Part shown: one piece after another, positions 22,648 through 36,072 of the stretch
Layout of the letters: each line of letters starts with the position of its first letter
How positions within the stretch are numbered: position 1 is the first letter of the stretch
Source of the DNA: Salidesulfovibrio onnuriiensis
Lineage (GTDB): Bacteria > Desulfobacterota > Desulfovibrionia > Desulfovibrionales > Desulfovibrionaceae
Assembly (NCBI RefSeq): GCF_008001235.1
Contig: NZ_CP040751.1
Location: 2,711,001 to 2,775,000 of the forward strand
Reading direction: 5' to 3'
Length of the DNA: 64,000 nt
The notes under the pieces: generated by a model
The model's input: the letters and a program-made list of their open reading frames with translations, nothing else
Database searches by the model: none
What the model was told of the DNA's origin: nothing
Made by a program: the position numbers and the translations under genes

Positions 22648-22680
22648 AAAAAAGCCCGGCTCGCATGAGCCGGGCTTTTT
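22648..22680. terminator. Bidirectional intrinsic terminator
   Basis: A perfect stem AAAAAGCCCGGCTC with loop GCAT and flanking A- and T-tracts lies between the convergent yibE/F-like and NapH-like genes. Confidence 0.93.
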
Positions 22681-22698: not shown

Positions 22699-23472
22699 CT
22701 ATCCGTCCGTCTGTTGCTTCGCACAAGAACCAGCGGCCCCCTTCAACTCAATGGCGTTCACGGGGCACGCCCCCTTGCACTCGCCGCAGTTGGTACAGTT
22801 GTCCAACGCGGGGCGGGTCTCCAGTCCGCAGACCCTGTTGCAGATTCCGCAGTCCGTACAGTTGTCCGCCATCCGGTACCTGAACAGCGAAAACCGCTTG
22901 AGCACCTCGAGAACTCCGCCCGTGGGGCAGACAAAGCGGCAGAAGAAGTACGGCACGAGCAGCCCCATCAGCAACGCGCCCAGGACAATGAAGGTCCGCG
23001 CCAGCCACAGAGGAAAGGCATGCTCGAAGGTCAGCAGCGTCGACTTGATGAATTCGCCTGTCCGAATGGGAACCGCCCACCGGGGATTGTGCATGGCGAA
23101 AAACAGATAGGCGCATACCAATGCCGCCAGATACTTGCCGAAGCCGGCCACCCTGGCGAAGCCGCCCGATATCTTGCCCTTGAAAACGGCAACCTTGCCG
23201 AACAGCTCGTTCAGCATGCCCACGGGACAGGAATATCCGCAAAAGGCCCTGCCGAAAAGCAGGCCCGAAGCCAGGATGCCGAGCAGCACGAGAAGCCAGA
23301 GCTTCTTTCCCGGACACTGGACCACCGGACAGTTGGCGCAACTCACGTAGGGCACGGCAAAGGGACAGCGGAAGATTCCGTAATAGGAGAACTCCGCCAG
23401 ACAAAACAGGGAAACCGCCTGAATGATACGACGCGTCCATTGCAGCCGCATTCCTTTCGCACTTCTAGACAT
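22699..23472 (-). CDS. NapH-like membrane protein with ferredoxin clusters
   Basis: A 257-residue inner-membrane electron carrier of the NapH/MauN/PceC type. About four to five hydrophobic segments carry Cys motifs typical of the family (CANCPVVQCPG near residue 45, FCGYSCPVGMLNE near 78, FFCRFVCPTGGVLEVL near 178). Two [4Fe-4S] motifs follow at the C-terminus (CTDCGICNRVC and CTNCGECKGACP, 205-240). Such proteins pass electrons between quinol and partner redox proteins. It is the last gene of a three-gene unit, and its start overlaps the 3' end of the binding-protein gene by 8 bp. No terminal reductase is encoded beside it, so its electron donor and acceptor are unknown. Confidence 0.85.
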   Translation of the reverse strand: MSRSAKGMRLQWTRRIIQAVSLFCLAEFSYYGIFRCPFAVPYVSCANCPVVQCPGKKLWLLVLLGILASGLLFGRAFCGYSCPVGMLNELFGKVAVFKGKISGGFARVAGFGKYLAALVCAYLFFAMHNPRWAVPIRTGEFIKSTLLTFEHAFPLWLARTFIVLGALLMGLLVPYFFCRFVCPTGGVLEVLKRFSLFRYRMADNCTDCGICNRVCGLETRPALDNCTNCGECKGACPVNAIELKGAAGSCAKQQTDG

Positions 23473-24334
23473 CCTTCACCCCGTACTTTTTCGCCAGGCG
23501 CTCGCCCTCATTGGAAAGGGCCGGAATAAAACCGGCCGCCTCGAAACAGGCCTGTCCTTCCTCGCCGCAAATGAAATCGACAAACGCCCTGGCCATCTCC
23601 TCATTCCTCGCCCATTTCATGACCCCGACGCTGAAGGGGATGGGCGGTGCCGGGAAAAACTTTTCGGGAATTTCTATGATTTCAAAAGCATCCCGATACC
23701 GGGGAAGCCTGGTGATCCGCAGTTCGACCACCGCGACGTCGGCCTTGCCCGTAGCCACATCGGCAACGTCGTGCTGAATGCAGGAGCCCATGTAGATGGC
23801 CTTTTCCGTGGCCTCCTTGATGACGCCGCTCTTCTTGAGCACGCCCATTGCCGCGGCCCCGCCCGGAGGGGAGGACTCCGGAGAGCACAGGGTCTTCACC
23901 CCCGGCTTCCTGATATCCTCGATAGACGTGATGCCCGCAGGATTGCCCTTGGGAGTCACCAGAACGTATTTGGTGAAGCAGAGAGGCTGAAAGGAAAGCA
24001 TCTTGCCCTGCTGCTTGAGCGTTTGCGCAAGCTTGAGCACGCGCGGGGCAAAGACCTCGGTCCGGGCATTGCCGAGCAGCGACTTTCCCAAAGCCGCGGC
24101 AAAGGCTCCCGTATAGCTGATGGAGCCGCCCATTTTTCTTTCGAACTTTTCGTTGGCAGGAATGAAGGCTTCGGCCAGCCCGCCACAGGACCACACCTGC
24201 AGGCTTTCGGCGCCAAACCGCCCTTTGGAGCCTTCCCCGGCCTTGCCCATACCCGGAGCCAGAGCCGTGGCCATGGCCGCGCCCCCGCCGACCAGAAACG
24301 ACCGCCTGCTCAACATGTTTTTTTCATCTGACAT
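23465..24334 (-). CDS. Tat-exported ModA-like periplasmic binding protein
   Basis: A 289-residue extracellular solute-binding protein. The N-terminus has a twin-arginine signal (SRRSFLVGGGAAMATALA, residues 9-26), which suggests export in folded form, perhaps with a bound cofactor. The mature part resembles the molybdate/tungstate binding family (LQVWSCGGLAEAF, YTGAFAAALGKSLL, LVTPKGNPAGI, GKADVAVVEL, CGEEGQACFEAAGF). It contains about five cysteines, unusual for ModA. AAGGAGGG lies just before the ATG at 24334. No permease or ATPase gene is present, so it may not feed an ABC transporter. It overlaps both neighbours and is likely translationally coupled to them. The ligand is unknown; an oxyanion or a metal complex is my guess. 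Confidence 0.8.
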   Translation of the reverse strand: MSDEKNMLSRRSFLVGGGAAMATALAPGMGKAGEGSKGRFGAESLQVWSCGGLAEAFIPANEKFERKMGGSISYTGAFAAALGKSLLGNARTEVFAPRVLKLAQTLKQQGKMLSFQPLCFTKYVLVTPKGNPAGITSIEDIRKPGVKTLCSPESSPPGGAAAMGVLKKSGVIKEATEKAIYMGSCIQHDVADVATGKADVAVVELRITRLPRYRDAFEIIEIPEKFFPAPPIPFSVGVMKWARNEEMARAFVDFICGEEGQACFEAAGFIPALSNEGERLAKKYGVKDV

Positions 24335-25146
24335 CCTGTTCCCTCCTTCCCTGGAATTCCCACCGCATCCGCACGGCATTGCTTACATTTACTGAACACG
24401 GACAACCAGTTTCCGCCCTGTTCCCGGACCTCGGCCATTTCCTGCGAGGTCGGCCTGCGCATGTCCCTGAGCCCATTTCTCGGAATAAGCGGCATGGGGT
24501 TGAACACACGGGCACCCAATCGCGCGGCCATCTCGGCAACGGCCCCGGCCTCACGCATGTTCACCTGGGGCGTTACGACCATATTGACCTTGACCACTAT
24601 GCCTCCGTCGACTGCCCGCCGGATTCCCTCCCGCTGGCGCTCGAGAAGCAATTGCGCACCGTCCTGTCCGGTGCGGCAAACGCCCCGGTCCACGACACGG
24701 GGCTGCATCAGCGCAACCGTCTCCGGCGAGACCCCGTTCACGGTCACGGTCAACGTCCCAATGCCCAGTTCGATGAGCCGGTCGACACTTTCTGGAAGCG
24801 CCAGCCCGTTGGTACACAGGCAGGTGCGTGCATCAGGTTCGATGGATTTCAGCCGGGAAAGACAGGTGAAGGTCGCCTCGTTTGCCAGCGGATCCCCGGG
24901 CCCGGCAATGCCGACAATGGAGCCTTTTCCGTATTCATTGAGAAAGGCGACCGCCCTGGCGACGCCCTCTTCCGGGGAAATGACCCGAGCCGTGGTTCCC
25001 GGCCCGGGATCGCGGGGATCCGAGGAAAGAATTCTTTCGCAATAGGCACAGGCCAGATTGCAACGTGGAGCGACAGGAAGATGTATCCGCGCGACCTTGC
25101 CGTGCGCCTCATCGTCCATGCACGGATGATACGGCAGCGGCAACAT
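24310..25146 (-). CDS. NifB-like radical SAM protein
   Basis: A 278-residue radical S-adenosylmethionine enzyme. It starts with the NifB-type lead HPC...ARIHLPVAPRCN and the cluster motif CNLACAYC (near residue 30). SAM-binding GIAGPGDPLAN follows (near 82), and the C-terminal cysteine motif KCKQCRADAVG (near 254) is the one seen in NifB, which makes the carbide-containing NifB-co. It lacks the NafY-like C-terminal domain and no nitrogenase genes are in the window, so nitrogenase assembly is not implied. The ATG at 25146 has GGGGAG upstream; a start at 25188 is possible. It is the first gene of an overlapping trio with the binding protein and the NapH-like protein. Confidence 0.83.
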   Translation of the reverse strand: MLPLPYHPCMDDEAHGKVARIHLPVAPRCNLACAYCERILSSDPRDPGPGTTARVISPEEGVARAVAFLNEYGKGSIVGIAGPGDPLANEATFTCLSRLKSIEPDARTCLCTNGLALPESVDRLIELGIGTLTVTVNGVSPETVALMQPRVVDRGVCRTGQDGAQLLLERQREGIRRAVDGGIVVKVNMVVTPQVNMREAGAVAEMAARLGARVFNPMPLIPRNGLRDMRRPTSQEMAEVREQGGNWLSVFSKCKQCRADAVGIPGKEGTGCQMKKTC

Positions 25147-25240
25147 GTGGGAACTCCCCTGCCGCATGGGATTGGAGCAGGTATGCATAATGGCACTTCC
25201 AGTGTTTTGGTGAATCGGGCAAATTGATACTTAGGTGCCG

Positions 25241-25270: not shown

Positions 25271-25343
25271 TAGTTCGTCTCAATTCCATACCGAAGGACT
25301 CATAGAAAGCGCCGATAGGCTCGGCGCGCCGAAACAAATGAAA

Positions 25344-25366
25344 GGCCCCGCCTGAAAGACGGGGCC
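25344..25366 (-). terminator. Hairpin terminator downstream of the SGNH hydrolase gene
   Basis: On the minus strand a GGCCCCG...CGGGGCC stem is followed by TTTC. The T-tract is short. Confidence 0.6.
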
Positions 25367-25394
25367 CTGTTCACTACAACTCGCCGTTTGGCTG

Positions 25395-34012: not shown

Positions 34013-34867
34013 ATGTGGGAATACACGGACTTAGTAAAGGACCATTTCCTGAATCCGCGCAACGCCGGGACCATGGATGACGCCGACGGCATCGGCGAAG
34101 TGGGCTCCCTGGCCTGCGGTGACGCCCTGAAGCTGTACCTGAAAATCGACGACAACGGCATCATTCAGGATGCCAAGTTCCAGACCTTCGGTTGCGCCAG
34201 CGCCATTGCGTCGAGCTCCGCCCTGACCGAGCTGCTCAAGGGCAAGAGCGTGGAAGAGGCGCAAAAGCTTACCAACAAGGACATCGCCGACTATCTCGGC
34301 GGCCTGCCGCGCGAAAAGATGCACTGTTCCGTCATGGGCCAAGAGGCCCTGGAGCAGGCCCTCAAGAACTACCGTGGCGAGGCCGGAACCGTTGCCGAAC
34401 ATCAGCATGAGGGAGAACTCATCTGCGAATGTTTCGGGCTCATGGATGAGGAAATCCTCCGCGCCATCAAGGAAAACGACCTCAAGACCGTCGAGGACGT
34501 GACCAACTTCACCAAGGCGGGCGGCGGCTGCGGCAAGTGCATCCCGGACCTGGAGAACCTGCTGGCCCAGGCCCACGGCGAAAAAGCGGCCTGTTCGGTG
34601 CCGGAAGCCTCGGCTCCCCCGGCCGCGGGGCTGACCAACATGCAGCGCATGCACCTTATCGAACAGGTCATTGACGAGGAGATCCGCCCCATGCTGCAAA
34701 AGGACGGCGGCAACATCGAGCTGGTGGACGTGGACCGCACCGACGTCTATGTCCGCCTGCTGGGCATGTGCGCGGGCTGTCCCTCCAGCCAGGCCACCCT
34801 CACCGGCCTAGTGGAAGCGCAGCTCAGGGAAAAGGTCGATCCGGAAATCAGCATCAAGGAAGGTTAG
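34013..34867 (+). CDS. nifU: NifU-type three-domain Fe-S scaffold protein
   Basis: A scaffold on which Fe-S clusters are built and passed to apoproteins, 284 residues. The N-terminal IscU-like domain has the three ligand cysteines (SLACGDALK near 35, TFGCASAIASSS near 60, HCSVM near 104). The middle [2Fe-2S] domain has CECFGL and GGGCGKC (138-174). The C-terminal Nfu domain has GMCAGCPSS near 257. GAGGAG lies just before the ATG. It heads the operon nifU-nifS-cysK-epsC. Without nitrogenase genes here, it most likely serves general Fe-S protein maturation, which is heavy in sulfate reducers. Confidence 0.94.
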   Translation: MWEYTDLVKDHFLNPRNAGTMDDADGIGEVGSLACGDALKLYLKIDDNGIIQDAKFQTFGCASAIASSSALTELLKGKSVEEAQKLTNKDIADYLGGLPREKMHCSVMGQEALEQALKNYRGEAGTVAEHQHEGELICECFGLMDEEILRAIKENDLKTVEDVTNFTKAGGGCGKCIPDLENLLAQAHGEKAACSVPEASAPPAAGLTNMQRMHLIEQVIDEEIRPMLQKDGGNIELVDVDRTDVYVRLLGMCAGCPSSQATLTGLVEAQLREKVDPEISIKEG

Positions 34868-34869
34868 CC

Positions 34870-36072
34870 GTGCAAACCATATATATGGACAACAACGCCA
34901 CGACCAAGGTCGATCCGGAAGTCCTCGGCGAGATGATGCCGTACTTCACGGACCTTTACGGCAACCCCTCCTCCATGCACCGCTTCGGCGGCCAGATCGG
35001 CGCCAAGATGGTGGAGGCCAGGAAGCGCGTCGCCGACCTGCTGGGCTGCGAGCCGGACGAAATCATTTTCACGGCCTGCGGCACCGAATCCGACAACACG
35101 GCCATCCGCTCGGCCCTGAGCGCCCGGCCCGACAAAAAGCACATTGTGACCTCCCGCGTGGAGCACCCGGCCATCCTGAGCCTGTGCAAGCACCTGGAAA
35201 AACGCGAGGGCTACGCCGTCACCTACCTTTCCGTGGATGAATCCGGCAATGTCGACCTGGAGGAATTCAGAAAATCCCTGCGCGACGACACGGCCATTGT
35301 CTCGGTCATGTGGGCCAACAACGAAACCGGCGTCATCTTCCCGGTGGAGGAAATGGCAACCATCTGCCGGGAGCGCGACATCATATTCCACACGGACGCG
35401 GTCCAGGCCGTGGGCAAGGTCGCCATCGACCTCAGGAAGACGCCCATAGACATGCTTTCGCTCTCCGGACACAAGCTGCACGCCCCCAAGGGCATCGGCG
35501 CGCTGTTCGTGCGCAAGCGGCTGCCCTACCGCCCGTTCCTCATCGGCGGGCACCAGGAGCGCGGCCGCCGCGCGGGCACGGAAAACACCGCCGGCGTCAT
35601 TGGCCTGGGCAAGGCCTGCGAACTGGCCGGCCAGCACATCGAGGACGAGAACACCCGAGTCAAGGCCCTGCGCGACAGGCTGGAAAACGGCCTGCTGGAC
35701 ATCATCCCCCACGCACGCCTCAACGGCGACAGGCAGAACCGCCTGCCCAACACGACCAACATCTCCTTCGGCTACATAGAGGGCGAAGCCATCCTGCTCA
35801 TGCTCGACCAGCTCGGCATCTGCGCCAGCTCCGGTTCGGCCTGCACCTCGGGCAGCCTGGAGCCCTCCCACGTGCTGCGCGCCATGGGTGTGCCCTACAA
35901 CTTCGCCCACGGCTCGATCCGTTTCAGCCTGAGCCGCTACAACACCGAAGAGGAAGTGGATTTCATCATCGAAAACCTGCCCAAGGTCATCGAGACCCTG
36001 CGCAAGCTTTCGCCCTTTTCCGCCGAAGGCGACGACGGTTCGTCCTGCACCACCCCGAGAAGCACGGAGTAG
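34870..36072 (+). CDS. nifS: NifS/IscS-type cysteine desulfurase
   Basis: A PLP enzyme that takes sulfur from cysteine and hands it to the NifU scaffold, 400 residues. It has the start [14 protein letters not shown], the PLP lysine in [12 protein letters not shown] (near 200) and the catalytic cysteine loop in [17 protein letters not shown] (near 324). The start is GTG at 34870, 3 nt after the nifU stop, with AAGG within the nifU end. The next gene starts 3 nt after its stop. The C-terminus is a short Ser/Thr-rich tail. Confidence 0.94.

Follow-up and report, generated by a model that had tools for sequence, protein, structure and literature searches.

The NifB literature is mostly tied to nitrogenase, and the activation of methyl-coenzyme M reductase (MCR) in methanogens is a recently added use of NifB beyond that enzyme. 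According to the parts of PMC12176620 that we consulted, the McrC/Mmp7 L-clusters of the MCR activation complex lie outside nitrogenase and are held by cysteine or histidine residues, one of them by two cysteines and possibly a third, and NifB is essential in non-diazotrophic methanogens. Excerpts of two further papers describe NifE as holding NifB-co by two cysteines (PMC13128457) and stand-alone radical S-adenosylmethionine (SAM) NifB proteins without a NifX domain as active (PMC5715403). Here we analysed a 64,000-nucleotide stretch of Salidesulfovibrio onnuriiensis DNA (contig NZ_CP040751.1, positions 2,711,001 to 2,775,000; hereafter the window, numbered from its first letter), in which three overlapping minus-strand genes encode a NifB-related radical-SAM enzyme (NifBL), a ModA-fold binding protein with a twin-arginine translocation (Tat) motif (SBP) and a membrane protein resembling NapH (NapHL). 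The trio belongs to a real and widespread system, and our strongest result is that its SBP-NapHL pair is associated with NifB even where nitrogenase is absent.

The distribution of the system was determined with an SBP profile built from 19 SBPs, those chosen via NifBL or the window. The profile matched 45 of the 297 genomes of the order, 16 of 395 of the phylum and, for the class to which Sporomusa belongs, 21 of 235. Across GTDB genomes it found 70 loci, three of which are fragments. By their record titles, the 70 loci span Desulfobacterota, Phycisphaerae, Bacteroidales, Chitinivibrionales, an Acidobacteriota bin and Bacillota. The trio is thus not unique to this genome, a point on which the preliminary description had made its reading depend. 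The window NifBL as sole query against the GTDB genome contigs gave no matches, and its near relatives among the 297 order genomes are few (G198, G143, G160, G238 and G203, at 52-67% identity). In the phylum, the SBP (E≤1e-45) and NapHL (E≤1e-30) profiles selected the identical 16 of 395 genomes, with no NapHL match between E 1e-30 and 1e-99. Among 20 fetched regions with a NifB match, SBP and NapHL lay beside the NifB-like gene in 18, the exceptions being L069 and this genome's own nif region (L070).

Synteny was compared across 80 loci, namely L051-L068 and L087-L154 after removal of 6 known duplicates; short loci (L072-L086) and two fragments (L155 and L156) are excluded. In 75 of them NapHL directly follows SBP on the same strand; the remaining five are cut off by a contig end that coincides with SBP or lies no more than 200 bp from it. 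The 8-bp SBP/NapHL overlap of the open reading frames (ORFs), as in the window, recurs in 50 of the 75. All three genes stand together in 54 of the 80 loci, and SBP-NapHL alone in a further 21. The order in the 54 trio loci is SBP>NapHL>NifBL in 40 and NifBL>SBP>NapHL in 11; in the other three, a single open frame runs through NifBL and SBP and has the Tat motif midway (L087:5053-6837, L088:5116-6840 and L152:5152-6855), possibly as a true fusion or with an in-frame internal SBP start. This arrangement is far beyond chance. Four Solidesulfovibrio-type loci (L106, L118, L135 and L137) have a second SBP-like ORF near SBP-NapHL.

A NifB-type match (E≤1e-40) was found in all 45 SBP genomes of the order and in 111 of the 252 others. 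By coordinates, NifBL lies beside SBP in 22 of the 45. For the other 23, the NifB match is placed away from SBP in 21, six of which have it only 6-8 kb away (G089, G102, G116, G173, G212 and G296); the remaining two, G114 and G230, have a NifB-type match without an assigned position. When NifB presence in the 23 non-adjacent SBP genomes was compared with that in the others, the Fisher value, uncorrected for kinship, was 2.3e-8, or 4.7e-8 without G114. Six of the 23 neighbourhoods were read (G093, G109, G155, G184, G230 and G116), and five had no adjacent NifBL. The exception, G155, has an adjacent NifBL (L231:8488-9033) missing about 100 central residues and carries another NifB, so that the shortening looks like decay where another NifB can substitute. 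A second set of 28 entries comprised 25 distinct genomes without a clear adjacent NifBL, in nine of which a contig end was too close to judge (L089, L095, L100, L107, L108, L109, L110, L134 and L139). The remaining 16, with intact flanks, all carry NifB elsewhere, 15 above the cut-off and one, G678, with 298.6 bits. The order set shares at least six of them (G016, G059 and, as judged by identical contig coordinates, G680=G296, G682=G102, G683=G183 and G684=G135), and the second set therefore adds ten genomes of new evidence.

Among 46 genomes with an adjacent NifBL, a PF00148 match at E≤1e-15 was missing from 14, and in eight others the matches were only distant ones (1.4e-59 to 3.6e-23). Completeness is 99% for two of the 14, G166 (one contig) and G182. 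The dependence of the pair on a NifB product rather than on nitrogenase is concluded because a missing NifBL is nearly always offset by another NifB and because of these 14 genomes without a nitrogenase-family match, which also rule out a pure nitrogenase accessory. As a lifestyle control we used the double-cubane reductase family (DCCP), present in 35 of the 45 SBP genomes and 116 of the 252 others (Fisher 6e-5); it is enriched and dispensable. An obligate DCCP partner is ruled out, given that the family is missing from 10 of the 45. DCCP genes are adjacent in a few loci, and were seen near the trio or SBP in L110, L128, L136, L154 and L223, with NCBIfam confirmation in L136 and L154.

The genome that holds the window is 3.89 Mb in one contig. 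At C1:1.81 Mb it carries a full-length NifB, NifX domain included, together with genes of nifDKEN type. The preliminary description of the trio as lacking nitrogenase genes therefore holds locally and fails genome-wide; it does fit the 14 of 46 trio genomes described above. The same genome has two modABC-type operons elsewhere, each with its own ModA-type binding protein. The possibility that a modBC pair elsewhere explains SBP as an ordinary importer was checked on these two pairs, further permease matches being weaker, and both already have binding proteins. An ordinary molybdate importer is ruled out by this finding and by the loss of the oxyanion ligands in SBP. The nif cluster of this genome also contains a third NifB-like protein (L070:6826-8028; G000:C1, approximately 1813826-1815028) with a NifX-like tail. 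Its CX3CX2C cysteines are absent, with RANSRIRYGAS in their place, and it should therefore not hold the SAM cluster.

The ORFs and coordinates of the trio were rechecked in the window. NifBL (24310..25146, minus strand, 278 aa, without a NifX domain), SBP (23465..24334, minus strand, 289 aa) and NapHL (22699..23472, minus strand, 257 aa) overlap by exactly 25 bp and then 8 bp and form one unit, as had been claimed. The starts at 25146 and 24334 are both backed by a Shine-Dalgarno-like sequence; an in-frame ATG at 25188 is an alternative for NifBL, and 24334 is favoured for SBP, with AAGGAGG immediately 5'. The claimed single terminator was confirmed as well. Its hairpin (stem 22654..22675, minus strand) is followed by a T run, closes the trio, and lies between it and the convergent YibE/F gene, to which it is common; the 61-nt stretch folds 5.2 standard deviations better than shuffles. 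A second, separate hairpin at 25342-25368 lies 3' of the upstream GDSL gene. YibE/F and GDSL are the genes flanking the trio, and nap genes are not among the window neighbours.

The NifB tail, the Tat arginine pair and the SBP cysteines that the preliminary description had listed are all present. NifBL matches archaeal NifB structures (PDB 7jmb, E 1.3e-61). Its CX3CX2C radical-SAM motif, CNLACAYC, lies at 25039..25062 (minus strand), and the cysteines of CKQCRADAVG (24358..24387, minus strand) occupy the K2-cluster positions C274/C277. TCLCTNG (24805..24825, minus strand) contains the K1 cysteine at the C129 position and an extra cysteine two residues on, and the loop CERILSSDPRDPGP (25000..25041, minus strand) is without the K1-cluster cysteine at the MaNifB C63 position. 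These ligand assignments, in MaNifB numbering, follow the consulted parts of PMC6053413 and PMC7145814. The window NifBL keeps the SAM-cluster cysteines, the K1 ligands C30, His43 and C129, and the K2 pair C274/C277. The proposed third K2 cysteine, C264, is absent from it and from this genome's nif NifB.

The NifBL clade containing the window comprises 15 sequences (ultrafast bootstrap 100). C63 is missing from every one of them, and in each the sequence CLCTNG places an extra cysteine two positions beyond C129. For the tree's 41 remaining trio NifBLs the reverse holds, with C63 kept and no such extra cysteine; C63 is also present in 6 nif NifBs. Judged from the alignment, one K1 ligand seems to have been exchanged for another in the window clade. 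In this tree, rooted on one archaeal NifB and too thinly sampled for an evolutionary claim, 19 sampled nif NifBs nest inside the second trio group.

SBP belongs to a ModA-type family (SBP_bac_11, E 7e-42) and scores below the cut-off of the NCBIfam ModA model TIGR01256 (51.7 against 62.5). Its AlphaFold model (pLDDT 94.4) has a ModA-type fold, matching 4kd5 with a Z of 25.4 and an rmsd of 2.4 over 224 residues. The Tat motif RRSFL lies at 24293..24307 (minus strand), and RRx[FWLVMI] was found in all 83 distinct SBP ORFs in which 30 or more residues precede the W-x-CGGL motif, which implies export of SBP after folding; the Pfam TAT model places the window SBP just under its cut-off. No dedicated permease or ATPase was found beside SBP in the window, and most loci have no linked permease. 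Three cysteines are conserved across 105 SBPs, a count that includes L121 and 8 of 66 usable SBPs omitted from an earlier alignment. That of WSCGG (24179..24193, minus strand), where beta1 meets alpha1 in lobe 1 and close to the ModA Ser12 position, is present in 103 of 105, with a gap in L112 and L121. The other two are invariant (105 of 105): that of PLCFT (23972..23986, minus strand) in a strand which we place at the inter-lobe hinge, and that of GSCIQ (23774..23788, minus strand) at the N-terminal end of a lobe-2 helix, adjoining the ModA Val152 position. The glutamate of VVELR (23717..23731, minus strand), at the ModA Tyr170 position, is equally invariant (105 of 105). The cysteine count of the 83 distinct SBPs in mature form is never below three and is exactly three in 30.

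The SBP was aligned to E. coli ModA, whose oxyanion ligands were taken from the consulted part of PMC8895017. In this alignment, which is weak in the second lobe and supported there by this genome's own ModA, the first cysteine corresponds to A10 near Ser12 and the lobe-2 cysteine to D151 beside Val152. ModA Ser12, Ser39 and Tyr170 are replaced by Gly, Ala and Glu, and the molybdate hydroxyl ligands are gone. According to the same excerpt, PDB 3axf is an A11C/R153C E. coli ModA with an engineered disulfide (PMC8895017). By analogy with 3axf, this suggests that the positions neighbouring the two SBP cysteines may meet across the cleft.

NapHL has Fer4_5 and Fer4 domains, with two CX3CP and two ferredoxin-type cluster motifs, and scores below the cut-off of the NCBIfam NapH model TIGR02163 (44.3 against 213.05). 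Hydropathy, positive-inside counts and the structure model (pLDDT 85.4) give a four-helix membrane protein with both ends inside. An invariant four-cysteine loop, RCPFAVPYVSCANCPVVQCPG (23308..23370, minus strand), with the pattern Cys-X8-Cys-X2-Cys-X4-Cys, lies between helices 1 and 2, is predicted to be periplasmic, and is missing from E. coli NapH. Together, this loop, the CX3CP motifs and the ferredoxin motifs could plausibly form an electron path across the membrane. The model had no PDB match at E≤0.001, a result with no bearing against this view of NapHL. The label "quinone-linked", given to NapHL beforehand, remains conjectural.

Genes for YedE-type putative selenium transporters occurred in the fetched flanks of 20 of 106 loci, some from the same genome (two calls by TIGR04112, the rest by tblastn), against a rough expectation of 0.6 loci if 2 copies per 3,500 genes are assumed. 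This enrichment leans on Negativicutes, which contribute 15 of the 20. In addition, SclA-like lyase, YedF, SelD, SelB and small DUF3343-like genes (the last label is our own, without a model match) are found in some Bacillota, one Bacteroidales and some Desulfobacterota loci. Because YedE genes flank about a fifth of the loci, a selenium or sulfur compound is our best guess for the substrate, with moderate support. Other neighbours were recorded. An SsuA-type binding protein with an ABC permease/ATPase lies near the trio in L123 (Sporomusa ovata) and in the Desulfovibrio-type loci L056, L057 and L059. An alginate-export-type porin is near the trio in 8 locus entries, some from the same genome, and stands just upstream of the trio or of SBP-NapHL in L092, L097 (Pfam-confirmed), L129 and L131; a periplasmic rhodanese is near the trio in 6 loci. 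In the window, a cysteine-desulfurase homologue with approximately 27% identity to SclA-like proteins lies at 34852-36003 (plus strand), about 10 kb from the trio.

We give about even chances to a reading in which a periplasmic metallocluster protein with a NifB-type cluster is assembled, exported and kept supplied with electrons by the trio. In its favour are the conservation and co-occurrence of the genes, the association with NifB without nitrogenase, the cluster cysteines that NifBL retains, the Tat motif, the conserved SBP cysteines and their positions relative to ModA, the L-cluster precedents outside nitrogenase and in NifE, and the frames that NifBL and SBP share in three loci. NifBL, or the cell's nitrogenase NifB where NifBL is absent, would build a NifB-type iron-sulfur cluster. 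We infer that this cluster would most likely be the [8Fe-9S-C] L-cluster (NifB-co), and that the ModA-fold SBP would receive it in its cleft while still in the cytoplasm, the conserved cysteines of the lobes and hinge holding it there. SBP would fold around the cluster, and the holo-protein would exit via Tat. NapHL would then pass electrons between cytoplasmic ferredoxin-type clusters (or quinol) and SBP via its predicted periplasmic four-cysteine loop, and the exported SBP would work as an extracytoplasmic reductase or electron carrier, for which a selenium or sulfur compound would be the likeliest substrate. The more specific version is tentative and, to us, somewhat doubtful as a whole: a Venus-flytrap ModA scaffold that clamps [8Fe-9S-C] between its lobes, is exported by Tat, is driven by NapHL and, in the periplasm, reduces a selenium or sulfur compound to a product that YedE-type carriers import. 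To our knowledge, an extracytoplasmic protein with the NifB cofactor (an iron-sulfur-carbide cluster) would be the first. The preliminary description had proposed an exported metal-cofactor protein made by the radical-SAM enzyme with a redox membrane partner. This remains the best-supported reading, in which the cofactor itself is still the presumed part; the metal-sensing system offered beside it gained no support.

Several observations weigh against the metallocluster reading. The genomes are related, and the Fisher values are therefore optimistic. Among the nine genomes with a nearby contig end, G690 and G694 have only weak NifB matches and G696 has none; G690 has nifDKEN-grade genes. In the locus flanks of 14 Negativicutes loci, L225 is without an adjacent NifBL and L224 has only an 82-aa piece. 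The other 12 of the 14 PF00148-negative genomes have no completeness figure, and most of the 14 are bins. The invariance of the first SBP cysteine is partly due to selection, because the SBP-profile loci were picked by peptide patterns containing this cysteine; it is also held by the 19 profile-source SBPs, chosen via NifBL or the window. Selenium genes were found neither in the window nor near its closest relatives (L051-L055), except for a weak 30% SelB-type match in L051. NifBL scores 237.5 bits against its closest NCBIfam model, TIGR01290 (NifB), and misses the cut-off of 343.65, partly because the NifX domain is missing. The window NifBL is without the K1 ligand C63. The K1 cysteine swap may be a single event, and the exchange may partly be an alignment matter, because a cysteine occurs at another place in the C63 loop in 7 of the 15 clade members and in none of the other eight, which include the window. 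Finally, the three SBP cysteines could equally hold a [4Fe-4S] cluster or form a disulfide.

A three-cysteine site is typical of [4Fe-4S], and NifBL may make something other than the 8Fe carbide cluster, such as a simpler or methylated iron-sulfur cluster, with SBP as an ordinary iron-sulfur electron carrier matured by NifBL. The absence of a C63-equivalent K1 ligand from the window clade and the score below the NifB cut-off are in its favour. However, the other 41 trio NifBLs keep C63, and another NifB appears able to replace NifBL, which argues that the two make the same product; we consider a different product unlikely. It is rather improbable, in our view, that SBP instead binds oxyanions or chalcogens, as a receptor for selenium, sulfur or molybdenum species or as part of their uptake, with an indirect link to NifB. 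The ModA fold would suit such a role, as would the YedE, YedF, SelD, SclA-like lyase and SsuA-type ABC transporter genes near some loci, but the hydroxyl ligands of ModA are replaced (Ser12 to Gly, Ser39 to Ala and Tyr170 to Glu), most loci are without a linked permease, and the Tat signal and the NifB co-occurrence would be left unexplained. A cleft-spanning redox-active disulfide in SBP, reduced by NapHL in a thiol relay without an SBP cluster, finds a precedent in the two cysteines that adjoin the pair forming the engineered disulfide in E. coli ModA. It would not explain the NifB requirement or the third conserved cysteine and would make folded export needless, and we regard it as very unlikely.

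If the metallocluster reading is true, an exported protein is served by a dedicated NifB relative in bacteria, some of which have no detectable nitrogenase. This would be a second bacterial use of NifB chemistry and would make a standalone NifB a poor marker of nitrogen fixation. It would also provide a small soluble scaffold for the hardest iron-sulfur cofactor in biology, and would mean that a rare cofactor type has a role beyond nitrogen fixation, and even beyond the interior of the cell. The trio would moreover be a testable candidate where the way in which anaerobes acquire selenium or sulfur has a step without an explanation. By titles or abstract openings, no description of the trio was found in open-access PMC, and no paper there with both NifB and YedE was found. 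The novelty would lie in the combination, a NifB relative presumably feeding an exported binding-protein fold with a membrane iron-sulfur partner.

Compared with described systems, each member of the trio resembles a known protein and departs from it. NifBL shares with NifB the radical-SAM core, the K2 cysteine pair, the K1 residue His43 and the C-terminal CxxCRADA. Unlike NifB (TIGR01290), it has no NifX domain, its window clade is without C63 and has an extra cysteine, and it is co-encoded with SBP-NapHL, in some genomes without detectable nitrogenase. SBP has the two-lobed type II binding-protein fold of ModA (4kd5 and E. coli), but differs in its Tat motif, its three conserved cysteines, its lost molybdate hydroxyl ligands and the lack of an adjacent permease/ATPase in the window. 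NapHL resembles NapH in its two CX3CP motifs, two C-terminal cluster motifs and four predicted helices, whereas the extra four-cysteine loop between helices 1 and 2 and the absence of adjoining nap genes in the window set it apart. Selenium loci with YedE, YedF, Sec lyase and DUF3343 are described in the consulted text of PMC5322559, in which the terms NifB, ModA and radical SAM are absent; loci of this kind contain or adjoin the trio in Negativicutes, one Bacteroidales and some Desulfobacterota. Compared by description, and as far as the consulted parts of its report go, the MCR activation complex resembles the trio in apparently using a NifB product outside nitrogenase, as an electron-transfer cofactor on few cysteine or histidine residues. 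It differs in being archaeal and built of other proteins, whereas the presumed carrier of the trio is an exported ModA fold with a membrane iron-sulfur partner.

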